Shown here: positions 2,892 through 57,610 of the stretch, piece after piece
Numbering within the stretch: position 1 is the stretch's first letter
Layout: each line of letters starts with the position of its first letter
DNA from: Nocardioides sp. HDW12B
GTDB lineage: Bacteria; Actinomycetota; Actinomycetes; Propionibacteriales; Nocardioidaceae
Length of the DNA stretch: 64,000 nt
Reading direction: 5' to 3'
Assembly (NCBI RefSeq): GCF_011299595.1
Contig: NZ_CP049867.1
Coordinates: forward strand, 2,790,001-2,854,000
Notes under the pieces: generated by a model
The model's database searches: none
What the model was told of the DNA's origin: nothing
What the model saw: the letters and a program-made list of their open reading frames with translations, nothing else
Position numbers and translations under genes: made by a program

Positions 2892-2892
2892 C

Positions 2893-37876: not shown

Positions 37877-39244
37877 TCAGCTGCCGTCGGCGATGAAGAC
37901 GTTCTTCTCCTCGGTGAACGCCAGCGGGGCGTCCGGTCCGAGCTCGCGGCCCAGCCCGGACTGCTTGAAGCCGCCGAACGGCGTCCAGTACCGGACCGCG
38001 GAGTGCGAGTTCACGCTGAGGTTGCCCGCGGCGACGCCGCGCGACACCCGCAGCGCGCGGCCGACGTCGGAGGTGAAGATCGAGCCGGAGAGACCGTACT
38101 CGGTGTCGTTGGCCAGCCGCACGGCCTCCTCCTCGGAGTCGAACGGCAGCACGGCCACGACCGGGCCGAAGACCTCCTCGCGCCACACCGCGTCGTCCGT
38201 GCCGCCGGGCAGGACGACGGTCGGCGGGACCCAGAACCCGGCGCTGTCGGGCGCGGAGCCGGTGAAGGCGACCTCGACGTCGGTGAGGTAGCCGGCGACC
38301 CGCTCCTTCTGCGTCGCGGAGATCAGCGGCCCCATCTCGCTGTCCGGGTCGGCGCCGGGGTCGGTCACGCGCATGCCGGTGACGGCCTGCTCGAGGCGAC
38401 CCAGGAACTCGTCGTACGCCGGACGCTCGACGAGGATCCGCGACCGCGCGCAGCAGTCCTGCCCGGCGTTGTCGAAGACGGCGTACGGCGCGCTCGCGGC
38501 GGCCGCGGCGATGTCGGCGTCGGCGAACACCACGTTGGAGGACTTGCCGCCGAGCTCGAGCGTCACCCGCTTCACCTGGTCGGCGGCGCCGGCCATGATC
38601 TTCTTGCCGACGGCGGTGGAGCCGGTGAAGCAGACCTTGCGCACCAGCGGGTGCGTGACGAAGCGGTTGCCGACGACGGAGCCGGCGCCCGGGATGATCG
38701 TCAGCACGCCCTCGGGCAGCCCGGCCTCACGGCCCAGCTCACCGAGGCGGATCGCGGTCAGCGGGGTGAGCTCGGCGGGCTTGAGGACGACGGTGTTGCC
38801 GGCGGCCAGCGCCGGGGCCAGGCCCCAGCCCGCGATGGGCATGGGGAAGTTCCACGGCACGATGATGCCGACGACGCCCAGCGGCTCGTGGAAGGTGACG
38901 TCGATGCCGCCGGAGACCGGGATCTGGCGGCCGTGCATCCGCTCCGGGGCGGCGGAGTAGTAGTTCAGGACGTCGCGCACGTTGCCGGCCTCCCAGCGCG
39001 CGTTGCCCCAGGTGTGGCCGGCGTTGCGGACCTCGAGCCCGGCCAGCTCGTCGAGGTGCTCGTCGACCAGCGCGGCGAAGCGGCGCAGCAGCCGCGCGCG
39101 CTCCCCCGGCGCGACGTCGCGCCAGGCCGGGAACGCCTCGTGCGCCCGCTCGATGAGGGCGTCGGTCTCGGCCTCCGAGGCCAGCTGGACCTCGGTCACC
39201 GGCTCGGCGGTCGCCGGGTTCAGGACGGTGTAGGACGTGCTCAC
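37877..39244 (-). CDS. Aldehyde dehydrogenase (gamma-glutamyl-aminobutyraldehyde / PuuC-like)
   Basis: A 455-residue NAD(P)-dependent aldehyde dehydrogenase. GVVGIIVPWNFPMPIAGWGLAPAL (cofactor region), FTGSTAVGKKIM, the Glu in VTLELGGKSSNVVF and the catalytic Cys in DNAGQDCCARSRILVE are all present; the first of the paired Cys may be the nucleophile. It would oxidise gamma-glutamyl-gamma-aminobutyraldehyde or a related aminoaldehyde. It is downstream of the ligase gene but separated by a 130-bp gap holding the palindrome-hairpin element, which may affect readthrough. Confidence 0.9.
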   Translation of the reverse strand: MSTSYTVLNPATAEPVTEVQLASEAETDALIERAHEAFPAWRDVAPGERARLLRRFAALVDEHLDELAGLEVRNAGHTWGNARWEAGNVRDVLNYYSAAPERMHGRQIPVSGGIDVTFHEPLGVVGIIVPWNFPMPIAGWGLAPALAAGNTVVLKPAELTPLTAIRLGELGREAGLPEGVLTIIPGAGSVVGNRFVTHPLVRKVCFTGSTAVGKKIMAGAADQVKRVTLELGGKSSNVVFADADIAAAAASAPYAVFDNAGQDCCARSRILVERPAYDEFLGRLEQAVTGMRVTDPGADPDSEMGPLISATQKERVAGYLTDVEVAFTGSAPDSAGFWVPPTVVLPGGTDDAVWREEVFGPVVAVLPFDSEEEAVRLANDTEYGLSGSIFTSDVGRALRVSRGVAAGNLSVNSHSAVRYWTPFGGFKQSGLGRELGPDAPLAFTEEKNVFIADGS

Positions 39245-39280
39245 GCCGGGGTCCTCCTCGGGGGCGGGGGAAGTGTGTCG

Positions 39281-39366
39281 GTTTCACTAGGTACCTAGTG
39301 AAACTGGCGCTTCCCGAACGAAACTTCACTCGGGAAGCGCCGGGATCACTAGGTACCTAGTGAAAC
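39281..39366. repeat. 86-bp palindrome-hairpin-palindrome element, copy 1
   Basis: A perfect 24-bp palindrome (39281-39304, KpnI-type GGTACC at its centre), then a 12-bp-stem hairpin (39306-39317 pairs with 39330-39341, loop 12), then a second near-copy of the palindrome (39344-39366). It sits nine bases after the glutamine-synthetase-like stop and before the aldehyde dehydrogenase start. The same architecture recurs at 56320-56405 and in part at 44920-44980. Confidence 0.9.
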
Positions 39367-39374
39367 TGGCAGGG

Positions 39375-40742
39375 TCACAGTCTCTCGAAACCGCGGCGAA
39401 GCTCCCAATCGGTGACGGTGGCGTCGTAGTCGGCCAGCTCGACGTCGGCCATGTTGGTGTAGTGGTCGACGACCTCGTCGCCCAGGGCCGCCCGCGCGAC
39501 CTTCGAGGTCGTGAACGCCTCACGCGCCTCGTTCATGGTGTGGGGCACCTTGGGGGCGTCGGAGTCGTAGGCGCTGCCGGTGAGCGGCGGCTCCAGCGTC
39601 AGCTTCTTCTCGATGCCATGCAGGCCGCCGGCCAGCATCGCCGCGAGCGCGAGGTAGGGGTTCACGTCGCCGCCGGGCACTCGGTTCTCCATGCGGGCCG
39701 CCGGGCCCTCCCCGACCAGGCGTACGGCGCAGGTGCGGTTGTCGTTGCCCCAGGCGATGGCGGTGGGGGCGAAGGAGCCGTGGGCGAAGCGCTTGTAGGA
39801 GTTGATGTTCGGGGCGTAGAGCAGCGTGAAGTCCCGCATCGTCGCGAGCACGCCCGCGACGAACCGGTCGTAGAGCGGGGTGGTCTTCCCGGCCTTGTCG
39901 TCCCAGAAGACGATCTCGCCGTCCTTGCCACGCAGCGACAGGTGGATGTGGCACGAGCTGCCCTCGCGCTGGTTGAACTTCGCCATGAAGGTGATCGACT
40001 TGCCGTGCTTCACCGCGATCTGCTTGGCGACCTCCTTGTAGACCGCGTGGTTGTCGGCGGTCACCATCACGTCGTCGAAGAGGAAGCCGATCTCGTGCTG
40101 GCCGAAGTTGCACTCGCCCTTGGCCGCCTCGGTGTTCATGCCGGCGGCGTACATCGTGTTGCGGATCTCGCGCAGCAGCGGCTCCACGCGGTGCGTGCCG
40201 AGGATGGAGTAGTCGATGTTGTACTGGTTGGAGGGGACGAGGTCGCGGTAGCCCTTGGTGAAGGCCTCCTCGTAGGTGTCCTCCATGATGATGAACTCGA
40301 GCTCGGTGCCGGCGACGGCGACGTAGCCGAGGTCGGCGGCCCGCTTCATCTGCGCGGCGAGGATGGCGCGCGGGGACTGCGCCACCGGCGTGTGGTCGGG
40401 CCACGTCAGGTCGCACTGGATCATGGCGGCAGCCGGCTCGTTGGGCAGCAGCCGGATCGTCTCGAGGTCGAGCACGAACTCCATGTCGCCGTAGCCCTGC
40501 TCCCACGATGTGATGGCGTAGCCGTCGACGGTGTTCATGTCGACGTCGACGCCCAGCAGGTAGTTGCAGCCCTCGGTCTTGCCCTCGCCCAGCACGTGGT
40601 CGAGGAAGTAGCGCCCGTGCAGCCGCTTGCCCTGCAGGCGTCCCTGCATGTCGGTGAAGGCGACGACGACGGTGTCGATCTCGTCCTTCTCGATGGCTGC
40701 GCGGAGCGCGTCCTCGGTGAGGTGCCGGTCGTTGCGGGGCAT
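39375..40742 (-). CDS. Glutamine-synthetase-like gamma-glutamyl-amine ligase (GlnA3/PuuA-like)
   Basis: A 455-residue glutamine-synthetase-family enzyme. GTELEFIIMEDTYEEAF, then SSCHIHLSLRGKDG, NSYKRFAHGSFAP and ARMENRVPGGDVNPYLALAAML are the catalytic barrel and metal-ligand segments. Context with the aldehyde dehydrogenase, SDR and PuuD-like hydrolase says it makes gamma-glutamyl-amines (putrescine or another polyamine), as actinobacterial GlnA3 does, rather than glutamine for nitrogen assimilation. I chose the ATG at 40742 with GGAGG five bases upstream; an in-frame GTG at 40787 has no ribosome site. The 265-bp region upstream (40743-41007) shows no clear gene or operator. Confidence 0.88.
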   Translation of the reverse strand: MPRNDRHLTEDALRAAIEKDEIDTVVVAFTDMQGRLQGKRLHGRYFLDHVLGEGKTEGCNYLLGVDVDMNTVDGYAITSWEQGYGDMEFVLDLETIRLLPNEPAAAMIQCDLTWPDHTPVAQSPRAILAAQMKRAADLGYVAVAGTELEFIIMEDTYEEAFTKGYRDLVPSNQYNIDYSILGTHRVEPLLREIRNTMYAAGMNTEAAKGECNFGQHEIGFLFDDVMVTADNHAVYKEVAKQIAVKHGKSITFMAKFNQREGSSCHIHLSLRGKDGEIVFWDDKAGKTTPLYDRFVAGVLATMRDFTLLYAPNINSYKRFAHGSFAPTAIAWGNDNRTCAVRLVGEGPAARMENRVPGGDVNPYLALAAMLAGGLHGIEKKLTLEPPLTGSAYDSDAPKVPHTMNEAREAFTTSKVARAALGDEVVDHYTNMADVELADYDATVTDWELRRGFERL

Positions 40743-41007
40743 GGAGACCTCCGAGGAGTCGAGCGCGGGTGGGGCGTCGTTCGTCACTCTTGCAGACCCC
40801 AGCGCCGTTTTGCGCCCTCTCGCCCCAGACAGGTAGCGTCCCCCGTCGTCGGGCCAGGGAGGCTTCTGCGGGCCCGCGACCGACGGCGACCCCCCAACGC
40901 CGTTCGAACCCTCCGGTTCCCCCCGACCGAGGCACCGTTCGTGTGCGCCCCGGAACGCCCCCTGGCCTGGCGCTGTGCCCCCGTGTCGGAGCCGTCGGCG
41001 GCCGGTC

Positions 41008-41940
41008 TCAGGCCCAGTCGAAGCGCACGCCCGTGCGCTCCTCGCTGACCTGCCACAGCTGCGCGGCGAGCTCCTCGTCGCGCGCCAGCGGCTGCAGCCG
41101 GGCGGGCCCGGGGTGCTTGCCGCGGCTCTCGCGGAGCCCCTGCGGCCCCGTGTACGGCGGCGGGTCGGCCACGGTGGCGGCGTACAGGACGGGCAGCGCG
41201 CCCGCCCGCGGCGACTGGAAGGCGAGCTTGAGGAAGAGCGGTGCCACGATCCGCACGCCCGGGATCGAGCCCAGACCCTGCTCGCTCGTGACCAGGTTGG
41301 TGGCCGAGACGCCCGGGTGGGCGGCGACCGAGGTCAGGGGCACGCCGGCGGCCCGCGCGCGGCGCTGCAGCTCGGCGGCGAAGAGCAGGTTGGCCAGCTT
41401 GGAGTTGCTGTAGGCGCGCGAGGCGTTGTAGCCCGCGCGGGGGTTGCCCGCGAGGACGTCGGGACGACCGCCGTGGTGGGCGATCGAGGACACCGTGACC
41501 ACGCGCGCGGACGCGGCGGCGCGCAGCGCACCGAGCAGCCAGCCGGTGAGGGCGAAGTGCCCGAGGTGGTTGGTGCCGAACTGCAGCTCGAAGCCGTCGC
41601 TCGTCTCCTGGTAGCGCGGCGGGGTCATCACGCCGGCGTTGTTGACCAGCAGGTCCAGCGGCCCCTGCCAGTCGGCGGCGAGCTTCTCGACCGAGTCCAG
41701 GGACGCCAGGTCGAGCGCGGCAACGCGGACCTCGCCGGCGCCCTGCGCGCCCGCGAGCGCGGAGCGGACGCCGTCCGCGGCCGACTCACCCTTGGCCGCG
41801 TCGCGCACCGCGAGCGTCACCTCGGCGCCGTGGCGGGCCAGCTCCTGCGCGGTGTGCAGCCCGATGCCGCTGTTGGCGCCGGTGACGAGCGCGCGCCGTC
41901 CGGTCAGGTCTCCGAGGTCGTCGGTGGTCCAGCGGGACAT
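41008..41940 (-). CDS. Short-chain dehydrogenase (retinol-dehydrogenase/WW-oxidoreductase type)
   Basis: A 310-residue SDR. NAD(P) motif VTGANSGIGLHTAQEL, NNAGVMTPP, and the catalytic YSNSKLANLLFAAEL are intact. The sequence pattern (FGTNHLGHFALTGWLL, HPGVSATNLV) is typical of the retinol-dehydrogenase-like oxidoreductases common in actinobacteria. I chose the ATG at 41940 with GAGGAG upstream; the in-frame start at 42000 lacks a site. It is flanked by genes on the same strand with no overlap. The substrate is unknown. Confidence 0.88.
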   Translation of the reverse strand: MSRWTTDDLGDLTGRRALVTGANSGIGLHTAQELARHGAEVTLAVRDAAKGESAADGVRSALAGAQGAGEVRVAALDLASLDSVEKLAADWQGPLDLLVNNAGVMTPPRYQETSDGFELQFGTNHLGHFALTGWLLGALRAAASARVVTVSSIAHHGGRPDVLAGNPRAGYNASRAYSNSKLANLLFAAELQRRARAAGVPLTSVAAHPGVSATNLVTSEQGLGSIPGVRIVAPLFLKLAFQSPRAGALPVLYAATVADPPPYTGPQGLRESRGKHPGPARLQPLARDEELAAQLWQVSEERTGVRFDWA

Positions 41941-42006
41941 GGGGCTCCTCAGGTCGTCGTGCGGTACGACGTCAGCGTGCCCCCGGCCCCGGGCGGGCAC
42001 ACCCGG

Positions 42007-43896
42007 TCAGCGCGTGAGCCACATCGCGGCGTACGGCGGCAGCTCGACCTCGCGCACGGAGCTCAGCCGGTGCGGGGCCCGGTGGGGGGCGAGCCGGTCG
42101 AGGACCCGGCCGTCCAGGCCGAGGTGGCGCAGCTTGGCGGTCGTGACGGAGCGTCCGGTGTCGGTGACGTTGTAGGCCCCGACCATCGGACCCAGCGGGT
42201 GGTCGCGCACGGTCAGCAGCACGCCCGGGTCCTCGGGCCACTCGACCCGGGTGGGCACCGAGGCGTGGAGGTGGGGCGTGCCGCGGCGCGCCTGCACGAG
42301 CGCCGTGATGCGCGGGAGCAACCCGTGGGGGTCCTCCGGGCGGCCGTCGCCGCCCCACGGCATCCGCGGCCGGTGGGCCCAGCGGTTGTCGTCGGCGTGC
42401 CCCTCCTCCGTCGCCCACCCAAGGTCGTTGAGGAGCCCGACCTCGTCGCCCATCCACAGCACCGGCAGGCCGCCGAAGCCGAGCACCAGCGCGTGCACGA
42501 GCAGGATCCGGTTGAGCGCCCACGGGTCGCCGCACTCGAGCCCGGCCAGGCTCGCCAGCGAGCCGGAGATGCGACGGTCGCCGGTCTCCTCGTTCTCGCC
42601 GAAGACCAGGCCGCGCGCCCAGGAGCCCGGGAACTCACCGGAGTAGAAGTCGGAGAGGAACGAGCGGTGGGCGAAGCCGCTGACGCCCATCGCCGCGGCG
42701 TCGCCGTCGTCGATCGCCCACCCGATGTCGTCGTGGCAGCGGGCGTAGGTGATCCAGGCCGTGGTGGGGGGCGTGGGCGGCAGCTGCTGCAGGGCGTACG
42801 TCGCGAGCCGCACGTCGCGGCTGGCCAGCATCGACCAGACCTGCACCATGAGGCCGTTGTGGTAGGCGAGGTCGCTGACCTTGCCGTGGTGCTCGCCGGC
42901 GCCGAGGTAGGCCGGCAGGTCGCGGGGTCCGACGATCGCCTCGGCCTTGAAGACCACCGCCGGGCAGGCGATCCGCACCACGGTGCGCAGCGCCTGGGTC
43001 AGGGCGTGGACCTCGGGCTGGTTCTGGCAGTTGGTCCCGAGCCGCTTCCAGAGGAACGCGATGGCGTCGAGGCGGAACACCTCGACCCCCAGGTTCGCCA
43101 GGTGCAGCACGATGTCGGCGTAGGCGCAGAAGACGTCGGGGTTCGACCAGTCGACGTCCCACTGGTAGGTGTTGAAGGTCGTCCACACCCAGGCTTCCAC
43201 CTCGTCGTCCCAGGTGAAGCTGCCGGGGGCGATGTCGGGGAAGACCTCCGGCAGGGTCTGCTCGTAGGCGTCGGGCATCCGCCGGTCGTCGAAGAGGTGG
43301 AAGTAGGCGCGGTACTCCGCCTCGCCGGCCTTGGCCCGCCGGGCCCACTCGTGCTCGGTGGCGACGTGGTTGAGCACCAGGTCCAGGCACAGGCTCATCC
43401 CCCGCGCGCGCAGCCGGGTCGCCAGCGCGCGGAGGTCGTCGGTGGTGCCGAGGTCCTCGCGCACCGCGCGGTAGTCGGCGACCGCGTAGCCGCCGTCGTT
43501 CGGGGCGGGGCGCGGCTGCAGCAGGGGCATGAGGTGCAGGTAGGTGACGCCGAGCCCCTCCAGGTGGTCCAGGCGCTCCGCGACCCCGGCCAGGTCGCCG
43601 GCGAACCGGTCGGCGTAGGCGGCGTACCCGAGGGCGGCCGGGTCCTGGAACCAGTCCGGGGCCAGGCTGCGGCGCAGGTCGAGGTGGTGCAGCTCCGCGT
43701 CGCGGGCGGCGAACCCGGCCGCGGCCAGGTCGACCACCCGCCGGGCCACCGCCTCCGGGTCCGGGTAGACCGCGAGCCCGGCGAGCAGGTCGGGCCACCA
43801 GCGCTCGAGCCGGGCGGTGAAGAGCTCGACGAGGTGTGCCGGCAGACCCGTCAGGGCGTCGGGGACCGGAGGGACCGGGGGCACGTGCGCGGGCAT
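42007..43896 (-). CDS. Amylosucrase-like glycoside hydrolase family 13 enzyme
   Basis: A 629-residue GH13 enzyme of amylosucrase type, which builds alpha-glucan from sucrose or hydrolyses it. The nucleophile Asp is in [18 protein letters not shown], the acid/base Glu in [11 protein letters not shown], and the third Asp in [20 protein letters not shown] after the nucleophile matches amylosucrase. An N-terminal helical domain with [13 protein letters not shown] precedes the barrel. I chose the ATG at 43896 (AAGGA eight bases upstream) over one at 43905. It is divergent from a MerR/DICT regulator across 93 bp, suggesting local control. Confidence 0.88.
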
Positions 43897-43977
43897 GAGG
43901 AGCATCCTTCCAGCCCGTGCACCGACACGTCGCGAGACGATCGTGTTGAACAGGTTTCTCCACAAGGTGTGAAGGTT

Positions 43978-43983
43978 TATCCT
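43978..43983 (+). promoter_or_regulatory. Possible -10 element (TATCCT) of the MerR/DICT gene
   Basis: TATCCT ends six bases before the ATG of the regulator and no Shine-Dalgarno sequence is present in the gap, so the message may be leaderless. The -35 region is weak. The divergent amylosucrase promoter must also lie in this 93-bp gap. Confidence 0.4.
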
Positions 43984-43989
43984 CTTGTC

Positions 43990-44886
43990 ATGACGACATC
44001 GTGGGCTAAATCGGGTCAGAGGGCCGGCCAGAACGGCCGAGAGGTCAATCCCGGCACCCTCACGATCGGCGAGCTCTCGCGCCGGACCGGCATCAGCGCC
44101 AGCAACCTGCGCATGTGGGAGAGCCGCTACGGCTTCCCGCTTGCGCTGCGGCTGCCCAGCGGGCACCGGCGCTATCCCGAGGAGGTCGTCGACTCGATCC
44201 TGCGCGTCAAGCAGCGTCGTGAGGTCGGCGTGCGGCTCGAGGCCGCGATCACCGAGGTCTCGCAGTTCGCCGCCTCCCCCGCGACGTCGGTGTGGGCCGA
44301 GCTGCGTGAGCGCCACCCCCACCTGCGACCGCACCGGCTGCGCAAGTCCACCCTCCTCGCGCTCTCCTGGGCACTCGAGGACGAGTGCTGCGCCCGGGCC
44401 AGCTCGCCGTGGCTGTTCGGCGCCTTCCAGCGGGAGAAGTACTACCGCCGTGCGGAGGGACGCTGGCGCGACCTGGCCCGGACCTCCCGCGGCACCTGGG
44501 CGCTGGCCGACTTCCCCGACAACGTCGCCCGCCCGGACGCCCCGTTCGAGGTGGCGCTGCCCGACGGCGCCCCGATGCACCGCGAGTGGACCCTGGCCTG
44601 CCTGGCCGAGGACTTCCCCGCCGTGCTCACCGCCTGGGAGATCCCCGGGCAGGTGGGCGTGGTCGACCGCGACCGCGTCTTCGAGTCGGTGTGGAGCCTG
44701 GAGCCGGAGCCCGTGCGCGACGCCTCGCGCACCCTGGCCCACATCGTCGCCGACGCCGGCTGCGACACCCGTGCGGTGCTCCACGACCTCGACCGGATGC
44801 GGGTCCCCGAGCCCCACCACCGCGACCTCCGCCGCGCCACGGACCTCTTCAACCGCGTCGTGGCGTACGTCGAGAAGGTGCGCTGA
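43990..44886 (+). CDS. MerR-type regulator with C-terminal DICT-like sensory domain
   Basis: A 298-residue regulator. The MerR helix-turn-helix is [25 protein letters not shown] (split: [10 protein letters not shown] about residue 25, then NLRMWE), followed by [20 protein letters not shown]. The remaining part (about residues 110-270) has [38 protein letters not shown] and [22 protein letters not shown], which fits a DICT sensory domain. The ATG at 43990 opens a much longer frame upstream that is a shadow of other genes. It is divergent from amylosucrase. The signal is unknown. Confidence 0.8.
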
Positions 44887-44919
44887 GCGTCCTCCCAGTT
44901 CCCCTGGATCCGGCTGCCG

Positions 44920-44980
44920 GTTTCACCAGGTACCTAGTGAAACCGGCGCTTCCCGAGCGAAGCATCACTCGGGAAGCGCC
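44920..44980. repeat. Palindrome-hairpin element, copy 2 (second palindrome lost)
   Basis: A 24-bp palindrome with one mismatch (44920-44943) and the same 12-bp-stem hairpin (44945-44956 with 44969-44980) lie 34 bases after the MerR/DICT stop. Where the second palindrome should follow, a different GTGC-GGGAA-GCAC mini-hairpin appears (44987-44999), so this copy is truncated or rearranged. Confidence 0.85.
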
Positions 44981-45071
44981 AGTTTCGTGCGGGAAGCACG
45001 CACCGTACGGCGGTCCAGCAGCCCGAGGTGACTCCCGGGAACCCGTCCAGGGTGGACTGCGTCCCACCGAC

Positions 45072-45890
45072 ATGACGATGATGCGACTCGTGACGCTTCC
45101 TGTGATCGCCGTCCTCACGCTGCTCGCCCTCGCCGTGGCCGGCTGCGGCGACACCACCGCGGGCTCCGACGGCGACGCCGCGGGACCGGGAGCCGGCGCG
45201 TCGGACAGCGGGCGGGCGACGGCCGCCCCCGCCGACGGGGTGTACGTCGCCACCGACGTGTCCGGACGCTCGCTCGTCGAGGGCACCCGGGTCCGGCTGA
45301 CCTGGAAGGGCGACCAGCTCTCCGCGGACGCCGGCTGCAACCAGATGTCGGGCAGCGCCTCGGTGGCGGACGGTCGCCTGGTGGTCACCGGGCTGGGCAT
45401 GACCGAGATGGGGTGCGAGCCCGGCCGCATGGAGCAGGACGAGTGGGTCGCCGACCTGCTGACGTCGCGGCCGCGGATCGCGACCGGCGCGGACGGCTTC
45501 ACCCTCACCGGGCAGAGCGTCACGGCACGCTTCGCGACCGAGCCGCCTCCTGAGGACGTGTCGCTCGAGGGCACGACCTGGCTGCTGGAGTCCACCGTCG
45601 ACGGCGACGTCGCCTCCAGCTCGGTCGGCGGCCCGGCCGCGTCCACGCCCCGGTTCCGCATCGCCGACGGCCGGGTGGTGGGCTTCGACGGCTGCGACGA
45701 GCTCTCCGGCCCCGTCGACGTCACCGCGGACTCGATCGCCGCGGGCGGCGACCTCGGCGGGACCGAGCGCCAGTGCCTCGTCGCCGGCGCCCCGCTGGCC
45801 GACCTGCTCGGCGGGTCGACGTACGTCGTCGAGGGTGACCGCCTCACGCTCACCCGCGGCGAGATCTCGCTCGTCCTGCGCGCCGAGTGA
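45072..45890 (+). CDS. META-domain lipoprotein
   Basis: A 272-residue lipoprotein with lipobox LAVAGC (Cys about residue 25) and two HslJ/META-like domains (about 60-155 and 165-270), each with the GT(W/x)xL and GCNQMSG / GCDELSG cores: SADAGCNQMSGSAS and VGFDGCDELSGP. META domains are small heat-shock-inducible or envelope-stress-related folds of unclear chemistry. The gene ends 13 bases from a convergent second lipoprotein gene of the same type, an unusual tail-to-tail pair. Start is the ATG at 45072. Confidence 0.85.
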   Translation: MTMMRLVTLPVIAVLTLLALAVAGCGDTTAGSDGDAAGPGAGASDSGRATAAPADGVYVATDVSGRSLVEGTRVRLTWKGDQLSADAGCNQMSGSASVADGRLVVTGLGMTEMGCEPGRMEQDEWVADLLTSRPRIATGADGFTLTGQSVTARFATEPPPEDVSLEGTTWLLESTVDGDVASSSVGGPAASTPRFRIADGRVVGFDGCDELSGPVDVTADSIAAGGDLGGTERQCLVAGAPLADLLGGSTYVVEGDRLTLTRGEISLVLRAE

Positions 45891-45903
45891 CCGGTCGGCG
45901 GGC

Positions 45904-46299
45904 CTACTCCGGGTGGAAGCTGACGGAGACCTCCTCGTCGAAGAGCTGGAAGCCGCCTCCCTCGCTGCGCTCGACGGTGGGTCCGGTCCGCAGGAAGGCC
46001 TCCACCCAGACGTCGGGGTCGGAGTCCGGCGGGTTGCACGTCGAGGTCGACTCGACGGCCGCGAGCCGCAGCGTGGCGGCGTCGCCGACCTCGTCGACCT
46101 CGGCCTGCGCGACGATCCGCGTGCAGCCGGTCTCGACCTCGACCTCGTCGCCGCGCCACGCGAGCCGCAGCGGGGCGGTCAGCACCTGGGCGCTGACGTC
46201 CGACGGCTCGGCGGCGTAGCTCCCGTCGGCGATCACGCTCTCCCCACCGCAGCCGCCCAGCACGAGGGCCCCCACCGCCGCGAGCAGCGCGGCCCTCAC
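45904..46299 (-). CDS. Small lipoprotein with one META-like domain
   Basis: A 131-residue lipoprotein: short hydrophobic segment, lipobox LGGC, then a single domain with VETGCTRIVAQAEVDEVGD and VESTSTCNPPDSDPDVWVEAFL resembling half of a META protein. Its GTG overlaps the decarboxylase stop (GTGA), so it is the third gene of the agmatinase operon. It converges tail-to-tail with the two-domain META lipoprotein at 45072. Function is unknown. Confidence 0.78.
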   Translation of the reverse strand: MRAALLAAVGALVLGGCGGESVIADGSYAAEPSDVSAQVLTAPLRLAWRGDEVEVETGCTRIVAQAEVDEVGDAATLRLAAVESTSTCNPPDSDPDVWVEAFLRTGPTVERSEGGGFQLFDEEVSVSFHPE

Positions 46300-47654
46300 C
46301 GGGTGCGCTCCAGGACCTCGCGGACGACGTCGAGCGTGGTGTCGGGGTGCAGGAAGGCGAAGCGTCCCACGGTCTCGCCGTCCCACTTGCTCGGCGGGAT
46401 GAAGGCCACCTCGTCGTCGTGGAGCTTCCGCGCCCACGCGTCGTAGTCGTCGTGCTCCCACCCGAGCCGACGGAACAGCACGATCCCGAGGTCGGGCTCG
46501 CGCACCAGCTCGAGGTGGTCCTCGGCCCGCACCAGGTCGGCGGCCGCCTTCGCCAGGTCGACGCTGACCTCGATCGCCTCGCGGTAGGCACCGAGCCCGT
46601 TGACCGCGAGCGAGAACCACAGCGGCAGGCCGCGGGCCCGCCGCGTCAGGTGGTAGGCGTAGTCGGTGGGGTTCCACTCGCCGCCCTGGTCGCGGATGAC
46701 GTCGAGGTAGGACGCGTCCTGGGTGTGGGTACGACGTGCCAGCTCGGGCCGCTTGTAGACCAGGGCGCAGCAGTCGAAGGGGGTGAACATCCACTTGTGG
46801 GGGTCGACGATGAACGAGTCGGCCCGCTCGATGCCGGCGTACTTCGGCTTCAGCGACGGCACCAGCACGCCCGCGCCGCCGTAGGCGCCGTCGACGTGGA
46901 ACCACCAGCCGCGCTCCTCGGCCAGCGCTCCGACCCCGTCGAGGTCGTCGATGATGCCGGCGTTCGTGGTGCCCGACGTGCACACCACCGCGACCACGTC
47001 GTCGAGGACGGCCGCGTCGGTGCGCGCGATCATCCGCTCCACCGCGGACCGGGTCAGGCGGTGGTCGTCGGTCTCCACGACCAGAGCGTCCATCTCCAGC
47101 AGCATCAGGGTGTTGATGATCGAGGAGTGCGCGTCGAGGCTGACCACGACCTGCGGGCGTCCGGTCAGGGTCCGCTCCCGCTTCGCGGTCTCCCGCGCCA
47201 CGGCCAGCGCCGACAGGTTGCCGGCCGAGCCGCCGGAGACGAAGCAGCCGCCGGCGGTGGGGGGCATGCCCATCTCGGCCGCCAGCAGGGTGAGCACGGA
47301 GTTCTCCGCGGCGATCGCCCCCGACGCCTCGAGCCACGAGATGCCCTGGATGGAGGCGCAGGACACGAGCATGTCGAACAGCAGGCTGGCCTTCGTCGGC
47401 GCCGCCGGGATGAAGCCGAGGAAGCGCGGGCTGTCGGCGGAGATGACGCTCGGGGCGATCACCGACGCGTAGACGCCGAGCACCTCGTCGGGCTGCCGCG
47501 GCTCCTCGCGGATCACGCCGCGCAACCGGTCGTGCAGCCGGGCGGGGTCGAGGGTCGCCTTGTCGAGCGGCACGGGGTCCATCCGCAGCCTGTTCTCCGC
47601 GTAGGCCAGCACGCTGCGCACCATCTGCTCGGTGGTCTGGTCGACGGAGTGCAT
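46296..47654 (-). CDS. PLP-dependent group II amino-acid decarboxylase
   Basis: A 452-residue fold-type I decarboxylase of the aromatic-L-amino-acid/diaminobutyrate decarboxylase group. The PLP Lys is in SFIVDPHKWMFTPFDCC; the stacking His in VSLDAHSSIIN; CTSGTTNAGIIDDLDGV and FHVDGAYGGAG complete the site. Its ATG shares its A with the agmatinase TGA (TGATG), and its stop overlaps the lipoprotein gene. Substrate is not readable: tight linkage to an agmatinase-like gene suggests arginine or a guanidino amino acid, but tryptophan/tyrosine/DOPA-type enzymes look alike. Confidence 0.88.
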   Translation of the reverse strand: MHSVDQTTEQMVRSVLAYAENRLRMDPVPLDKATLDPARLHDRLRGVIREEPRQPDEVLGVYASVIAPSVISADSPRFLGFIPAAPTKASLLFDMLVSCASIQGISWLEASGAIAAENSVLTLLAAEMGMPPTAGGCFVSGGSAGNLSALAVARETAKRERTLTGRPQVVVSLDAHSSIINTLMLLEMDALVVETDDHRLTRSAVERMIARTDAAVLDDVVAVVCTSGTTNAGIIDDLDGVGALAEERGWWFHVDGAYGGAGVLVPSLKPKYAGIERADSFIVDPHKWMFTPFDCCALVYKRPELARRTHTQDASYLDVIRDQGGEWNPTDYAYHLTRRARGLPLWFSLAVNGLGAYREAIEVSVDLAKAAADLVRAEDHLELVREPDLGIVLFRRLGWEHDDYDAWARKLHDDEVAFIPPSKWDGETVGRFAFLHPDTTLDVVREVLERTR

Positions 47655-48691
47655 CAGCGCTCGCCCTCCCCGGGCGTGCCACGCCCCTCGAGCAGCGGCT
47701 GGAGCGGGTTCCACGTCGTGCCGTCCCGGGCGTCCTGGCGGCGGCGCGCGATCGCGCTCAGCGACTCCAGCACCACCCGGTTGGCCAGGGCGGCGGTGAT
47801 GCCGGCGTGGTCGTAGGGCGGGCTGACCTCGACGACGTCGACGCCGACCACGGGCAGCTCCAGGCAGATGCGGCGTACGGCGTCGAGCAGCTCGCGCGCG
47901 GTGAGCCCACCCGGCTCGGGGGTGCCCGTGCCGGGGGCGTGCCCGGGGTCGCAGACATCGACGTCGACGGAGAGGAAGACGCCCTCGCACTCGTCCGTGG
48001 CGATCGCGAACGCCTCGGTCAGGCACTCCGCGAAGCCGCGGTGGACGATCTCGGTCATCTCGTAGGACCGCATCGTCTTGCCGGCCATCCAGTCGAGCGT
48101 GTCCGGCTCGGGCCAGTAGCCGCGCAGGCCCATCTGCAGGAACCGGTCGCCGCGCAGCGCGCCCGACTCGATGAGCCGGCGCATCGGCTGGCCGTGGCCC
48201 CACAGCGACCCGAACTCGATGTCGCCGGTGTCGGCGTGCGCGTCGAAGTGGATCATCGAGACCCGGCCGTGGCCGAGCACGTTGGCCACGCCCTTAGCGT
48301 CCGGGTAGGCGATGGAGTGGTCGCCGCCGAGCACCACCGGGATGGCGCCGGCGCGGGCGACCTTCTCGACGGCCGCCTCCAGGGCGGGCAGCGAGCGCTC
48401 GATGTCGCCGGAGTACATCTCCACGTCGCCGGCGTCGACGACGCGCAGGTCCTTGAGGCCGTCGGTGCGCAGCGCCAGGCTGGGCCGCGAGCCGTCGTGG
48501 GGCAGGTAGTCCTGCTCCCGGATCGCCTGCGGCCCGAAGCGCGCCCCGGGCCGGTGCGAGGTGCCGCCGTCGAAAGGGGCGCCGAGGATGACGACGTCCG
48601 CGTCGGCGTACGTCGCGGGCTCGTCGAGGTCGCACCGGTCGACGCCCAGGAAGGTGAAGTCGGGGCCGAACTGTTGGCCGTAGCGGGTCAT
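47654..48691 (-). CDS. speB: Agmatinase / guanidino-amine ureohydrolase
   Basis: A 345-residue arginase-family enzyme that hydrolyses agmatine or a related guanidino compound to an amine and urea. The manganese ligands are in VVLGGDHSIAYP (His), IHFDAHADTGD (Asp-His-Asp) and SVDVDVCDPGHAPG (Asp pair). I chose the ATG at 48691 (upstream in-frame starts run into the next promoter). It heads an operon with the decarboxylase and lipoprotein genes, divergent from an MFS exporter across 98 bp that holds a short inverted repeat. 4-guanidinobutyrase is an equally possible activity. Confidence 0.88.
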   Translation of the reverse strand: MTRYGQQFGPDFTFLGVDRCDLDEPATYADADVVILGAPFDGGTSHRPGARFGPQAIREQDYLPHDGSRPSLALRTDGLKDLRVVDAGDVEMYSGDIERSLPALEAAVEKVARAGAIPVVLGGDHSIAYPDAKGVANVLGHGRVSMIHFDAHADTGDIEFGSLWGHGQPMRRLIESGALRGDRFLQMGLRGYWPEPDTLDWMAGKTMRSYEMTEIVHRGFAECLTEAFAIATDECEGVFLSVDVDVCDPGHAPGTGTPEPGGLTARELLDAVRRICLELPVVGVDVVEVSPPYDHAGITAALANRVVLESLSAIARRRQDARDGTTWNPLQPLLEGRGTPGEGER

Positions 48692-48753
48692 GCTCCGGAG
48701 TCTGGCAGCATCGCCGCCACGCGTCGCCCCCTGGACGTCGCGACGCAGGTCGG

Positions 48754-48766
48754 CGGGAATATCCCG
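48754..48766. promoter_or_regulatory. Short inverted repeat between speB-like and MFS genes
   Basis: CGGGA-ATA-TCCCG forms a 5-bp symmetric repeat in the 98-bp divergent gap, 24 bases before the MFS start. It is a reasonable operator candidate but too short to assign. Confidence 0.3.
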
Positions 48767-48789
48767 GCCTCCCCCGGCGTCCCTCCCCT

Positions 48790-50304: not shown

Positions 50305-50314
50305 CGCCCGCCCC

Positions 50315-50444
50315 GCGTCGTCAACGACCCAGCACCCCAACCCCACGTCGTGAACGACGCCAGGCACCCGTCACGCGTCGTCAACGACACCAGGCCTCCC
50401 CCGACGCCCCTCCGACCGGCCCCACGTCGTTGACGACACCTGGC
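50315..50444. repeat. Four dispersed copies of GTCGT-NN-ACGAC between convergent genes
   Basis: Units (A/G)CGTCGT(CA/GA/TG)ACGAC followed by (A/C/G)CC(A/T)GG(C) occur at 50315, 50345, 50375 and 50424, mostly 30 bases apart. Each is a 12-bp near-palindrome and can hairpin. They fill the 203-bp gap between the MFS and peptidase stops, so they could terminate both transcripts or bind a protein. No gene is visible here. Confidence 0.75.
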
Positions 50445-50507
50445 CCGAATCGACCCGCTGAGCCGACCCCGCTGGCCTCGATCACACGGACCGCGAGGGG
50501 CCCTCGC

Positions 50508-52607: not shown

Positions 52608-52681
52608 CGCGTCACCCTAGATCGCGCGTCCGACAACGCTCCGGGTCACTGCGGTGCGGACCCGGGTGCCAGACTCGCGCC

Positions 52682-54334
52682 GTGATCGCCTTCGTCAACG
52701 GGTCCCTCTTCGACGGCCACCACCACCGCGGCCGACTGACCGGCGCCGTCCTCGTCGACGACGGCCGCATCGTCGCCGTCGACGCCCCCCGCGCCGACGT
52801 CCCGTCCGGGGCCGAGGTCGTCGACCTCGACGGCGGCCTGCTCGGCCCCGGCTTCGTCGACGCGCACGTCCACGCGGTGCAGGGCGGCCTCGAGCGCATC
52901 CGCTGCGACCTGTCGGAGGACCGCACGCGCGAGGACTACCTGCGCCGCATCTCCGCGTACGCCGCCTCCCACCCCGACCTGCCGTGGATCCTCGGGGGCG
53001 GCTGGTCGATGGCAGCGTTCGAGAACGGCGCCGCCCTCGCCGCCGACCTCGACGCCGTGGTGCCCGACCGCCCCGTCTACCTGCTCAACCGCGACCACCA
53101 CGGCGCCTGGGTCAACAGCCTCGCGATGCGCACGGCCGGCATCACCGACACCTCCCCCGACCCGGCCCACGGCCACTTCGAGCGCGACGCCCAGGGCCGC
53201 CCCTCGGGCACGCTCCACGAGGGCGCGATGGACCTCGTCCAGGCGATCGTGCCGGCGACGACCGACGAGGAGTACTACCGCGGCCTGCTCGAGGGTCAGT
53301 CCTACCTGCACTCCCTTGGCGTCACCGGCTGGCAGGACGCGATCGTCGGCGCCTACGGCGGCATCGACGACCCCGGCCCGACGTACGCCGCCGCCGCGCG
53401 CAACGGCGACCTGACCGCCTTCGTCGTCGGCGCGCTCTGGTGGGACCGGGACGTCGACGAGTCCCAGATCGCCAGCCTGGAGGAGCGCCGCCGCGACTTC
53501 TCGCACGGCCGGTTCCGGGCGACCAGCGTCAAGATCATGCAGGACGGCATCCTGGAGAACGGCACGGCCGCGGTCAGCGCGCCGTACCTCGACCGGTGCG
53601 GGCACGCGACCACCAACACCGGGCACTCCTTCGTCGACCCGGCCGCGCTGCGGCGCTACCTCCCCCTGCTGGAGGAGGCCGGGTTCCAGGTCCACGTCCA
53701 CGCCATCGGCGACCGTGGGGTGGCCGAGGCGCTCGACGCCTTCGCCACCGTGTCCCAGCAGGGCCCGAGCCCGTTGCGCCACCACCTCGCGCACCTGCAG
53801 CTCGTCGCGCCCGACGACGTCCGCCGCTTCGCCGAGCTCGGCGTGACCGCGAACATGCAGGCGCTGTGGGCCTGCTACGACGAGCAGATGACCGAGCTGA
53901 CGCTGCCGTTCCTCGACCCCGCCGCCGTGCCGCGGCAGTACCCGTTCGCCGAGCTCCACCGCGCCGGCGCCCCGCTGGCGATGGGCAGCGACTGGCCCGT
54001 CAGCACGCCCGACCCGCTGCAGGCGATCCACGTCGCGGTCAACCGCTGGGCGTACGGCGAGCCGGGCCGGGCCGGCAGCGAGCCGCTCCTGCCCGAGCAG
54101 GCGCTCGACCTGGAGACCGCGTTCGCCGCCTACACGAGCGGCTCGGCGTGGGTGAACCACCGCGAGGACGAGGTCGGCGCGGTCCGCCCGGGCCTGGCCG
54201 CCGACCTCGTCGTGCTCGACCGCGACCCGTTCACCGCCGACGTCGCCGAGATCGGCGCCGCCCGCGTGGTCGCGACCTACGTGGAGGGCCGCCCCGTCCT
54301 GGGGCCTCGGCCTAGGTGCGCGCCGGCTCGCTGA
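52682..54334 (+). CDS. Amidohydrolase (YtcJ-like, metal-dependent)
   Basis: A 550-residue amidohydrolase of the imidazolonepropionase/YtcJ-like group. Metal site motifs are LGPGFVDAHVHAV near the start, VHVHAIGDRG in the middle and PLAMGSDWPVSTPDPL toward the end; an N-terminal strand-rich domain (FVNGSLFDGHHHRG, ILVDDGRIVAVD-like) and C-terminal VRPGLAADLVVLDRDPF complete the usual layout. Substrate unknown; many are annotated as exoenzymes acting on N-acyl or cyclic amides. GTG start at 52682. Its last 23 bases overlap the convergent permease gene. Confidence 0.88.
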   Translation: MIAFVNGSLFDGHHHRGRLTGAVLVDDGRIVAVDAPRADVPSGAEVVDLDGGLLGPGFVDAHVHAVQGGLERIRCDLSEDRTREDYLRRISAYAASHPDLPWILGGGWSMAAFENGAALAADLDAVVPDRPVYLLNRDHHGAWVNSLAMRTAGITDTSPDPAHGHFERDAQGRPSGTLHEGAMDLVQAIVPATTDEEYYRGLLEGQSYLHSLGVTGWQDAIVGAYGGIDDPGPTYAAAARNGDLTAFVVGALWWDRDVDESQIASLEERRRDFSHGRFRATSVKIMQDGILENGTAAVSAPYLDRCGHATTNTGHSFVDPAALRRYLPLLEEAGFQVHVHAIGDRGVAEALDAFATVSQQGPSPLRHHLAHLQLVAPDDVRRFAELGVTANMQALWACYDEQMTELTLPFLDPAAVPRQYPFAELHRAGAPLAMGSDWPVSTPDPLQAIHVAVNRWAYGEPGRAGSEPLLPEQALDLETAFAAYTSGSAWVNHREDEVGAVRPGLAADLVVLDRDPFTADVAEIGAARVVATYVEGRPVLGPRPRCAPAR

Positions 54335-56219
54335 CCACCACGTGGTGCACGGGTACGTCGTACCGCTCCCGGGCACTGCTGACGACGTCGTGGCGCAGCC
54401 AGGTCGAGACGTCCTCGGGGTGGGTCGAGATCACGATGTGGTCCGGCTGGAACGACCGCACCGCGGCGTCGAGCGCGACCAGCGGCCGGTAGTCCCCGAG
54501 CTCGCCGTCGACGGTGAGGCCCTGCTCGCGCAGCACCCGCTTGGTCTGCTCGAGCCGGTCGCTCGCCGCGGTCGCGGTGGCCTCCCAGACGTAGGCCGCG
54601 CCCTCCCGCTCGGCCTGCCCGGTGTCGACCGGGTTGGTCGGCACGACGACGTGGTAGCTGGCCTGGTCGCTGCCGGGCAGCTCGTGCAGGCTGCGGTGCA
54701 GCTCGTCGCCGGTCAGCGTGCGGTTGGCCAGCACGAGCACCCGGCGCGCGGGCTCGCCGTCCTTGGCCGCCCCGTGGCTGTCGTGGTCGTCACCCCGGTT
54801 CAGGCGCTCGAGCTCGTCGGCGCTGACCGACCCGCCGCGCCAGCGGGTCAGCAGGAACAGCCCGAGCACGACGCCCCACGACAGCAGGCTGAGCAGGATC
54901 TGCGAGCGGGTGTCGTCGCCGATCATCATCTGCACCAGCACGGCGACGATGCCGAGCCCGGCGGCGATGGTCAACCACGGGAACAGCCACATCTTGACCG
55001 TCAGGTCCTCGTCGCGGGTGCGGCGACGCAGCACGAACTGCGAGACCGCGATGAGCAGGTAGACGAAGAGGATCACCGCGCCCGAGGAGTTCAGCAGGAA
55101 CGTGAAGACGGTGTCGGGTGAGACGTAGGCGGCGATGACCGACAGGAACCCGATGACGGTGGAGGCCAGGATCGCCAGCACCGGCACGCCGCGGGAGTTG
55201 GTCGTGATCAGCCGCATCGGGGCCTCGCGGCGCCCGGCGAGCACGAAGATCATGCGTGAGGCGGTGTAGAGCCCGGAGTTGAGGCAGCTCAGCACCGCGG
55301 TCAGCACGACCGCGTTCATGATGTGGTCGGCGTACGGGATGCCCATCTCGCCGAAGGCGGCCACGAACGGCGATCCGCCGTCCTCGTTGTCGTCCCACGG
55401 CACGATGCAGACCAGCAGGAAGACCGCGCCGACGTAGAACGTCAGCACGCGCACGATGACCGACTGGGTAGCGCGGGCGATCGCCTTCTCCGGGTCCTTG
55501 GACTCGGCGGCGGCCACGGTCGCGATCTCGGCGCCCACCATCGAGAAGACGACCACCACGATGCTGGAGAAGATCGCGCCGGCACCCGAGGGCAGGAAGC
55601 CGCCCTGCTCGGTGAGGTTGCTGAAGTCCATCCCCTGGCCGGGCCACAGGCCCAGCACGAAGGCGCCGCCGAGCACGAGGAAGGCGATGATGGCGGCGAC
55701 CTTGATGCCGGCGAACCAGTACTCGAACTCGCCGTACGACGACACCGAGACCAGGTTGGTGGCCGTCATGAGGACCATGAGGCCCAACGACAGCAGCCAG
55801 AGCGGGGCGTCGATCCAGTACGTCAGGATCTCCGCGCCGGCGACGGCCTCGAAGCCGACGACGATCACCCAGAAGTACCAGTAGAGCCAGGCGACGCTGA
55901 AGCCCGCCCAGCCACCGAGCGCGCGGCGCGCGTAGTCGGCGAAGGACCCCGTCGAGGGGTTGGCCGTGGCCATCTCGCCCAGCATCCGCATCACCAGGAT
56001 GATGAGCACCCCGGTGACGAGGTAGCTGAGGAACGCTCCCGGGCCGGTGTCGAGGATGACCGTGCTGGACCCGACGAAGAGGCCGGCGCCGATGACCCCG
56101 CCGATCGCGATCATCGTCAGGTGGCGCTGCTTGAGGCCCTTCTGCAGCTGGGCCCCGCCTCCTGGTCCGCCGCCCGAGCCGCCGCTCGTCGTACTCGTCG
56201 CTCCCGCTGCACCCGCCAT
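54312..56219 (-). CDS. Amino-acid/GABA permease (APC family) with C-terminal UspA-like domain
   Basis: A 635-residue transporter. The N-terminal 30 residues are Gly/Ser-rich, then about twelve hydrophobic helices of the APC superfamily (GAQLQKGLKQRHLTMIAIGG, GAGLFVGSSTVILDTGPGAF, MRMLGEMATANPSTGSFADYARRALG) like GabP. After the last helix (about residue 465) an extra 140 residues resemble a universal-stress/UspA fold (RVLVLANRTLTGDELHRSL, SYHVVVPTN, HIVISTHPEDVSTWL). Such fusions usually sense nucleotides. It probably imports GABA or polyamines for the nearby catabolic genes. It overlaps the amidohydrolase tail by 23 bases on the opposite strand. Confidence 0.88.
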   Translation of the reverse strand: MAGAAGATSTTSGGSGGGPGGGAQLQKGLKQRHLTMIAIGGVIGAGLFVGSSTVILDTGPGAFLSYLVTGVLIILVMRMLGEMATANPSTGSFADYARRALGGWAGFSVAWLYWYFWVIVVGFEAVAGAEILTYWIDAPLWLLSLGLMVLMTATNLVSVSSYGEFEYWFAGIKVAAIIAFLVLGGAFVLGLWPGQGMDFSNLTEQGGFLPSGAGAIFSSIVVVVFSMVGAEIATVAAAESKDPEKAIARATQSVIVRVLTFYVGAVFLLVCIVPWDDNEDGGSPFVAAFGEMGIPYADHIMNAVVLTAVLSCLNSGLYTASRMIFVLAGRREAPMRLITTNSRGVPVLAILASTVIGFLSVIAAYVSPDTVFTFLLNSSGAVILFVYLLIAVSQFVLRRRTRDEDLTVKMWLFPWLTIAAGLGIVAVLVQMMIGDDTRSQILLSLLSWGVVLGLFLLTRWRGGSVSADELERLNRGDDHDSHGAAKDGEPARRVLVLANRTLTGDELHRSLHELPGSDQASYHVVVPTNPVDTGQAEREGAAYVWEATATAASDRLEQTKRVLREQGLTVDGELGDYRPLVALDAAVRSFQPDHIVISTHPEDVSTWLRHDVVSSARERYDVPVHHVVVSEPART

Positions 56220-56319
56220 GACGGACCTCCTGGGCCGGGGGCCAGGCCGCCCCCGTAGGCAGTCCGGTCCCGATCTCCCAGGCGTACCCCTCCCGCGCGC
56301 TGCTCTAAACCAGCCCGCG

Positions 56320-56405
56320 GTTTCACTGGGTACCTAGTGATTCCGGCGCTTCCCTGACGAAACTTCACTCGGGAAGCGCCGGTTTCACTAGGTACCCAGT
56401 GAAAC
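56320..56405. repeat. 86-bp palindrome-hairpin-palindrome element, copy 3
   Basis: Palindrome 56320-56343 (with three mismatches), a hairpin whose arms are 56345-56356 and 56369-56380 (loop 12), then palindrome 56382-56405 with one mismatch. Exactly the same length and order as copy 1. It lies 17 bases after the class V aminotransferase stop and before the permease start. Confidence 0.9.
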
Positions 56406-56422
56406 CGGCAGGGGGTCCCGCC

Positions 56423-57610
56423 TCAGGCGAGGCGACGTACGGCGGCCACGAGGGTGTCGAGCTCGGTCTCGGTGTTGTAGTAGTGCACGGAGGCGCGGAC
56501 CACCTCGGCGAGGCCTCGGGCACCCAGGTCGAGCCGGGCCGACGTGGCGCTGGTGACGGAGGTGTTGATGCCCTGGCCGCGCAACGTGCCGCCCACCTCG
56601 GTGGCGGCGCGGCCCTGGACGGTGAAGGTGACGATGCCGCCGAGCACCTCCCCCCGGTCGCGTACGACGACGCCGGGCACCTCTGCGAGCCGCTCGCGAA
56701 GAGCAGCGGCGAGGGCGCGCACCCGGTCCCACGTCCGCTCCGGGCCGAGGTCGGTGAGGTAGCGGGACGCCACGCCGAGGCCGAGCACGCCGGCGGTGCT
56801 GCGCTCCCAGGTCTCGAAGCGGCGGGCGTCCTCGCGCAGCTCGTAGGCGTCGTCGGCGACCCAGGTGGCGGCGTGGAGGTCGAGGAACGGCGGGCTCAGC
56901 CGCTCCATCGCCCGGTCGCTGAGGTGGAGCAGCCCGGTGCCGCGCGGGGCGCGGAGGTACTTCCGCCCGGTCGCGGCGAGCACGTCGCAGCCGATCCTCG
57001 TCACGTCGACCGGGAGCTGGCCGACCGACTGGCAGGCGTCGAGGACGTAGAACACGTCGTGCTCGCGGCACTGCGCCCCGACCGCCTCCGCCGGGTTCAC
57101 CACCCCGTTGCTGGTCGGGACGTGCACCAGCGAGACCATCGCCGCGCCCCGGCGCAGCTCGCGCTCGAGCGCGTCGAGGGAGACCTGGCCGTGGTCGTCG
57201 TCCTCGACCAGGACGACCTCGACGCCGAGCCGGTCGCGCAGGTGCAGCAGGGAGATGGCGTTGCTGGCGTACTCCTGGCGCGAGACCAGCACCCGGTCCC
57301 CCGGCTCGAACGGGTAGCCGTAGACGGCGAGGTCCCACGAGCGGGTGGCGCTGTCGGTCAGCGCGACCTGACGGGTCTCGGCCCCCAGCAGGGCCGCCAC
57401 CGCGGCGTACACGGCCTCGATCTCGTCGGCGACCTCCCACTGCGCCTCGTAGCCGCCGATCTCCGCCTCGCGCCGCAGGTGGCCCACCACGGTGTCGAGC
57501 ACCTGGCGGGTGGGCAGCGCGCTCCCGGCGTTGTTGAGGTGCACCACCGTCTCGGTGCCGGGGGTGTCGGCACGGAGCCGGTCGAGGTCGGGGAGCAGGT
57601 CGTCAGGCAT
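56423..57610 (-). CDS. Class V aminotransferase (isopenicillin-epimerase/EgtE-like)
   Basis: A 395-residue PLP enzyme. VHLNNAGSALPTRQVLDTV opens the domain, VLDACQSVGQLPVDVTRIGCD is the cofactor region and the PLP Lys is in AATGRKYLRAPRGTGLL. The pattern is that of the isopenicillin N epimerase-like subgroup, which includes EgtE C-S lyases, but substrate cannot be told. ATG at 57610 chosen; a longer frame upstream lacks a site. It is followed by the 86-bp element (copy 3). Confidence 0.88.
   Translation of the reverse strand: MPDDLLPDLDRLRADTPGTETVVHLNNAGSALPTRQVLDTVVGHLRREAEIGGYEAQWEVADEIEAVYAAVAALLGAETRQVALTDSATRSWDLAVYGYPFEPGDRVLVSRQEYASNAISLLHLRDRLGVEVVLVEDDDHGQVSLDALERELRRGAAMVSLVHVPTSNGVVNPAEAVGAQCREHDVFYVLDACQSVGQLPVDVTRIGCDVLAATGRKYLRAPRGTGLLHLSDRAMERLSPPFLDLHAATWVADDAYELREDARRFETWERSTAGVLGLGVASRYLTDLGPERTWDRVRALAAALRERLAEVPGVVVRDRGEVLGGIVTFTVQGRAATEVGGTLRGQGINTSVTSATSARLDLGARGLAEVVRASVHYYNTETELDTLVAAVRRLA

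Follow-up and report, generated by a model that had tools for sequence, protein, structure and literature searches.

An 86-bp palindrome-hairpin repeat placed behind genes of Nocardioides reproduces in short form the ends of a nuclease-gene element

The described system closest to the repeat analysed here is that of REP sequences and their RAYT enzymes, in which, according to the available parts of two reports (PMC2817692, PMC3733652), a mobilising gene between two inverted repeat copies is accompanied by non-autonomous inverted pairs. On the same partial sources, the REP/RAYT families (REPtrons, BIMEs, REPINs) are dispersed extragenic palindromes of genome-specific sequence, and the family described below resembles them in these respects. 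It also resembles a REPtron in that a gene is flanked by inverted repeat copies, here with a different enzyme, whose mobilising role we infer. Other known systems share some traits with it. MITEs and TIRtrons have terminal inverted repeats and short non-autonomous copies, and the abstract of Feder and Bujnicki 2005 (PMC551604) proposed that the proliferating COG4636 PD-(D/E)XK nuclease genes are selfish. EDxHD homing endonucleases (I-Bth0305I) and Vsr provide the predicted C-terminal fold and, like the gene found here, are free-standing nuclease genes. The AbiE type IV toxin-antitoxin systems (AbiEi, Rv2827c) provide the N-terminal fold, and AbiEi antitoxins, as stated in the available part of PMC7319586, bind 23-bp inverted repeats at their own promoter. 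In the titles and abstract openings searched, which covered few subscription papers and little of bioRxiv, AbiEi, DUF559 and Vsr-like genes were never tied to flanking palindromes.

The window, a stretch of 64,000 nucleotides from Nocardioides sp. HDW12B, corresponds to positions 2790001-2854000 of a genome of one contig (4,192,138 bp; G000 below). A preliminary description had placed three copies of a palindrome-hairpin element at 39281-39366, 44920-44980 and 56320-56405, two of them full copies of 86 bp. The sequence check bore out these positions and lengths, and our own gene calls, made from codon usage without annotation, agreed that each copy is close to a stop codon (gaps of 8, 33 and 17 bp from these edges) and is followed by a same-strand gene. 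The conserved edges lie about 5 bp farther out. The units occur in three forms: S, palindrome-hairpin-palindrome (the 86-bp form); L, palindrome-hairpin-tail; and R, the mirror image of L. Copies 1 and 3 are S and copy 2 is L. The features of the window are listed below, with matches to R1, a covariance model of the palindrome and hairpin, in genome coordinates.

37877..39244, minus strand: next same-direction gene past copy 1 (own gene call)
39276..39371, no strand assigned: copy 1, S form, with palindrome 39280-39305, hairpin 39306-39341, palindrome 39342-39367 and short conserved edges; R1 matches 2829277-2829347 (plus) and 2829300-2829370 (minus)
39375..40787, minus strand: gene with its stop 8 bp from the originally described edge of copy 1 (own gene call), glutamine-synthetase-like by eye
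43990..44886, plus strand: gene before copy 2, ending at 44886 (own gene call)
44916..44997, plus strand: copy 2, L half unit of palindrome, hairpin and tail; R1 match 2834916-2834986 (plus)
45102..45890, plus strand: next gene past copy 2 (own gene call)
54312..56114, minus strand: next gene past copy 3 (own gene call)
56316..56409, no strand assigned: copy 3, S form; R1 matches 2846316-2846386 (plus) and 2846339-2846409 (minus)
56423..57610, minus strand: gene with its stop 17 bp from the originally described edge of copy 3 (own gene call)

The window holds 5 palindromes (three mismatches or fewer) and 3 exact hairpins, and the maximum count in 100 shuffles was 0 for either. Copy 2 had been regarded as partial; rather than being damaged, it represents a half form that recurs and has a tail of its own (GTTTCGTGCGGGAAGC, at 44982-44997), and the tails of L and R units are similar to a third copy of the hairpin arm. 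The hairpin itself is present as claimed, but its stem is not limited to 12 bp: the model has 16 pairs, and some units of relatives pair at 18 of 18 positions. That the hairpin had been read in the same orientation in all three copies carries little meaning for the near-symmetric full copies. A full copy can fold into one long hairpin, with a DNA z-score of -13.1. The edge consensus deduced from 58 G000 ends is T-G-[TC]-C-G-G-T-T-T-C-A-C. It was also observed, in the window hairpin at 39306-39341 and in relatives, that the two arms often differ and are drawn from a small genome-specific set; the variants concern 4-5 bases, a pattern as if arms had been reshuffled. Within the window, Rfam gave 0 matches at the gathering score, and copy 1 matched only below that score, mostly to miRNA hairpin families.

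The whole-genome search that had been proposed showed that the three window copies belong to a dispersed family. G000 contains 38 exact hairpins and 60 palindromes (three mismatches or fewer), and the backward control 0. R1 matched 86 times in G000 and 70 times in another species of the genus (G002), a symmetric unit being matched on both strands. Hand-sorting among the listed full-length matches gave 15 S, 16 L and 12 R units (43) in G000 and 21 S, 12 L and 7 R units (40) in G002. Copies inside coding regions, an observation that would have spoken against the preliminary description, were not seen: unit midpoints fell within called genes in 0/43 and 0/40 cases. Mapping to gene 3' ends showed that the outer palindrome edge mostly lies just past a same-direction stop codon, within 20 bp in 42/58 G000 ends (204/3000 random intergenic points) and 44/61 G002 ends (209/3000). 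Four further genomes gave 27/47 stop-adjacent outer ends vs 45/800 control points. Tail ends are rarely so placed (2/28 in G000 and 4/19 in G002 within 20 bp), and the units are therefore oriented to the gene 3' end. Many S units separate two convergent genes, so that each stop has a palindrome of its own.

We also considered L-R pairs as the ends of gene cassettes in general, and rejected this because the outer edges mostly belong to the stop codon of a neighbouring gene. Among the genes enclosed by L and R, the recurring one is the nuclease gene described below. Other contents were also seen: a SAM-methyltransferase-like gene (by eye) without a nuclease gene at G000 736492-737584 (L031:1493-2585), and two other genes at G002 2091932-2093426. 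A further L-R pair lies between ftsQ- and ftsZ-like genes (by eye) at G002 864922-865146 (L148:14923-15147).

Evidence for insertion comes from copy 1, which in G000 starts a few bases beyond a stop codon. The two genes flanking it adjoin, with short gaps and no element, in G002, G003, G004, G031 and G008; as the copy is missing from this spot in all five relatives, it represents an insertion, at a site that is otherwise empty. This is the single clean empty site in all, and it concerns a non-autonomous S copy. Among the matches listed for copies 2 and 3, both flanking genes were never placed together. The gene-bearing element of G002 was set aside in this respect, because relatives hold other genes at that site and it is thus no clean test. 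In a further relative, G001, three tandem copies of a 32-bp repeat with a different sequence lie behind the orthologue of the gene preceding copy 1 (L225:1803-1900). As for target-site duplications, a weak excess at 2-4 bp was obtained over 22 G000 elements (uncorrected p 0.01-0.05 at some offsets) and none over 25 G002 elements, and none is consistent across both genomes. Short L-R cores as remnants of the nuclease element found no support: five G000 cores showed no clear likeness to the element's non-coding interior, the only part compared, and for G002 one short core was compared, against the whole nuclease element. Only the G000 cores at 1113644, 1584021 and 1888834 resembled each other, weakly.

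Could the repeats simply serve the host, as bidirectional terminators or mRNA stabilisers at gene 3' ends that gene conversion has homogenised within each genome, with the nuclease gene as one more flanked gene? The oriented edge close to the stop codon and the very stable fold (z about -13) would suit such a role. So would the five element sites common to G000 and G002, with both flanking genes shared at three of them and one at the other two; at all five the G002 copies carry G002-type sequence. The terminator or mRNA-stabiliser action raised in the preliminary description nevertheless gained no support. Within 38000-57500 there are 4 terminator-like sites, none at a copy, and the three copies lack the combination of a hairpin and a T run. 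Moreover, sense-strand mismatches showed no consistent preference at the RNA level. In the hairpins of L and R units, G-U was found 3 times vs A-C 15 times in G000, and 5 vs 5 in G002; in the palindromes the counts were 11 vs 11 in G000 and 30 vs 0 in G002. The last count would fit an RNA-level preference, but selection at that level was rejected on these counts as inconsistent between the two genomes. Such host-useful elements would also leave unexplained why matched ends are found on the nuclease gene alone (1/99 genes) and why these ends co-vary with the protein, as set out below. We regard this explanation as unlikely.

When the genes adjoining units were clustered, a nuclease gene family was found beside units in six genomes; the only larger cluster was mixed and headed by ABC-transporter-like genes (label by eye). 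The partner gene, an AbiEi-like/Vsr-like nuclease, is what is new here, and it lies between L and R in both species studied closely. The positions, in genome coordinates and outside the window, are:

G000 999474-1000754: complete element, from the start of L (999474) to the end of R (1000754)
G000 999665-1000612: nuclease gene (315 aa) between L and R
G002 333967-335199: homologue between L and R, at a different locus

A complete element is thus about 1.2-1.3 kb, with L and a mirror-image R around one gene, and the 86-bp repeat reproduces in short form the ends of this approximately 1.2-kb nuclease element. A second copy of the nuclease gene, split over two frames, is present in G000 at 3805414-3806309 (L261). 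In G230, a further nuclease element (L267:1259-2504) has ends (GGTTTTTCAGC...) unlike the genome's main unit family.

This organisation recurs across genomes. A protein search of 15 genomes gave 42 matches, 30 of which were taken as loci. Inverted repeats scoring >23 were found in the flanks of 18/22 close homologues with enough flank, and in the control in 1/99 distinct G000 and G002 genes, which is the G002 nuclease gene itself; the next-highest control gene scored 15.5, hence 0/98 other genes exceed 23. Four of the 22 miss the flank test, one of which (L246) has both ends farther out. In that locus (L246:1474-3091), a GNAT-acetyltransferase-like ORF (about 2497-3015, by eye), possibly a passenger gene, shares a single L-R pair with the nuclease gene. 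Additionally, among named genomes at least 562 relatives were found; from the best 80, 79 were testable, of which 65 were above the 99% control level for inverted repeats in the flanks and 14 were not. The flanked loci include genes of Pseudonocardia, Tomitella, Nakamurella and Jiangella. Seven remote homologues were flanked in 0/7 cases by R1 and in 5/7 by a sequence-free flank test, the matched ends being of other design, including mirrored tandem arrays. Two remote AbiEi/DUF559-type genes (L254:1256-2489 and L263:1223-2466) are bordered by tandem arrays in mirror image, of about 21 and 32 bp. No match for the G000 protein was found in plasmids and phages at E<=1e-10.

The ends match each other, the protein and the dispersed units of their own genome. 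The two ends of one locus are alike, with a median score of 43.5. The similarity of ends between loci tracks protein identity (rho 0.33, 0/500 permutations), and ends are alike in 12/13 locus pairs with a protein identity of at least 70%, 3 of these 13 pairs involving one strain present in both sets. Dispersed units are best matched by the nuclease element of their own genome in 122/136 cases, that is 41/41, 30/38, 11/11, 12/12, 13/19, 6/6 and 9/9 in seven genomes; those better matched by another genome's element are 6/19 in G113 and 8/38 in G002.

The 315-aa protein is predicted to combine an AbiEi-antitoxin-like DNA-binding part with a Vsr/I-Bth0305I-like nuclease domain. Pfam identified AbiEi_4 at the N-terminus, the nuclease family MTES_1575 being merely hinted at in one protein; AbiEi profiles of PADLOC match the protein, and NCBIfam gave no match for it. 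A Foldseek search with the predicted structure (pLDDT 90.5) found AbiEi (6y8q, E 6.4e-6) and Rv2827c (1zel, E 1.2e-4), as well as Vsr (1cw0, probability 0.99, E 0.032) and I-Bth0305I (3r3p, probability 1.00, E 0.084, target TM 0.67), the nuclease part of the fold match being weak by E-value. Judging from the domain order, the latter two matches would cover the C-terminal part. Residues E206, D238, E249, D251 and K255 are invariant in 20/20 sequences, as expected of an active nuclease, and may form its active site. In six close homologues, recombinase domains of the DDE, HUH, serine and tyrosine types were all missing from the Pfam results. The binding of 23-bp inverted repeats by AbiEi, as given in the available part of PMC7319586, makes it plausible that the N-terminal part reads the palindrome.

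The same binding, at the proteins' own promoter (available part of PMC7319586), could also be taken to mean that the AbiEi-like protein is a regulator or genome organiser that binds all palindromes, dispersed ones among them, which would agree with palindromes that are near-perfect up to the centre in several genomes. We hold such an operator network to be very improbable: ends are present not just before the gene but also past its 3' end; the dispersed units lie mostly behind genes; a conserved nuclease-like domain is fused to the DNA-binding part; and copy 1 is an insertion.

R1 matches (E<=1e-4) were found in 86/245 genomes of the family, in 8/26 genera; confinement of the element to one genome, part of a case that the preliminary description had named as adverse to it, was not seen. 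This count is probably an underestimate, because R1 carries the G000 sequence and 20 candidates were scored per genome, while single weak matches may be due to chance. Wherever units were read, their frame is conserved and the palindrome and hairpin stems differ, each genome having its own version of the sequence. Within the genus, the nuclease gene is intact in G000 (43 units) and G002 (40 units) and apparently frameshifted in G003, which has 1 R1 match; G001 and G004, the latter 82% complete, have neither a close nuclease gene nor an R1 match. This pattern of gene and units fits activity of the gene. At the level of genomes the link is loose: a homologue at E<=1e-30 is present in 211/245 genomes vs R1 in 86/245, and at least two genomes (G097, G142) have R1 matches and no such homologue. 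Co-occurrence was thus set aside as support for the link between gene and units.

The partner enzyme found is unrelated to RAYT. The RAYT partner suggested in the preliminary description was sought as PF01797, which was found in 0/14 genomes, the control matching in 5/14 known genomes, and a RAYT (Y1) enzyme was rejected as the mobilising activity. REPtrons also differ from the family in that no Y1/HUH enzyme was found in 14/14 genomes, that the edge consensus over 58 G000 ends shows no GTAG or CGTC tag, and that the unit here is a two-part one (palindrome and hairpin), actinobacterial, with an AbiEi-like and Vsr-like nuclease as its partner. As membership fails on the enzyme and on the tag, the element works like a REPtron and is none. 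In contrast to I-Bth0305I and Vsr, the protein has an AbiEi-like N-terminal part, cognate flanking palindromes and many non-autonomous copies, its cutting or homing being putative. From AbiE systems it differs in the fused nuclease-like domain; no AbiEii toxin gene was seen beside it at the G000 and G002 loci (neighbours by eye), where it stands alone between L and R. The COG4636 genes belong to another nuclease family, and the abstract describing them has neither flanking palindromes nor non-autonomous copies (PMC551604).

MITEs and TIRtrons differ in that no consistent target-site duplication was seen here and that the ends here are themselves palindromic. A MITE-like family of the ordinary kind, with a known transposase encoded elsewhere in the genome as its motor and the nuclease gene as a frequent passenger, is to us the least probable of the alternatives. 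It could draw on the TIR-like ends and on the other genes found within L-R pairs (methyltransferase-like in G000, two genes in G002, the GNAT-like ORF of L246), but it is opposed by the result that no consistent duplication was seen, by the search for a Y1 transposase (the one transposase class searched), which found none in 14 genomes, and by the fact that the enclosed gene recurring across genomes is the nuclease, whose sequence the ends track.

In our judgement the three copies in the window quite probably belong, as non-autonomous members, to a selfish element of two parts, similar in its way of life to REP/RAYT and driven by an unrelated enzyme. The label of REP-like mobile palindromic element in the preliminary description was right as a description of behaviour: the units are dispersed, extragenic, placed at 3' ends, present in inverted pairs and genome-specific in sequence, with one clean empty site. 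The family looks like an unrecognised selfish element settling just behind genes, and the AbiEi-like/Vsr-like nuclease would provide its mobility. In the mechanism that we propose, the AbiEi-like part would read the palindrome, the nuclease would cut at or near it, or at a target behind the stop codon, and repair or replication would then copy the palindromic unit in; an intact gene could spread S, L and R units in trans. The preferred route of strand transfer would be a homing-like break and copy, which is the least certain step because Pfam gave no recombinase domain in the six close homologues. A broader proposal, to which we give even chances, is that the superfamily of actinobacterial genes with AbiEi-like and Vsr/DUF559-like nuclease parts is a class of mobile elements of unprecedented enzymology, each gene having private palindromic or tandem-array ends, mobilising these in trans and seeding bacterial genomes with 3'-end palindromes that diverge with the enzyme.

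If this is true, genes known only as AbiEi-like would be the engines of a mobile element, and their antitoxin or defence label would therefore be misleading. REP-like palindrome populations would, likewise, have arisen independently of HUH transposases, by way of a nuclease with a homing-endonuclease-like fold. The family offers a system for the co-evolution of a DNA reader and its palindrome, with many natural pairs with matched ends, several of them in some genomes, and the question of why such palindromes come to lie a few bases past stop codons can be put to a direct test with it.
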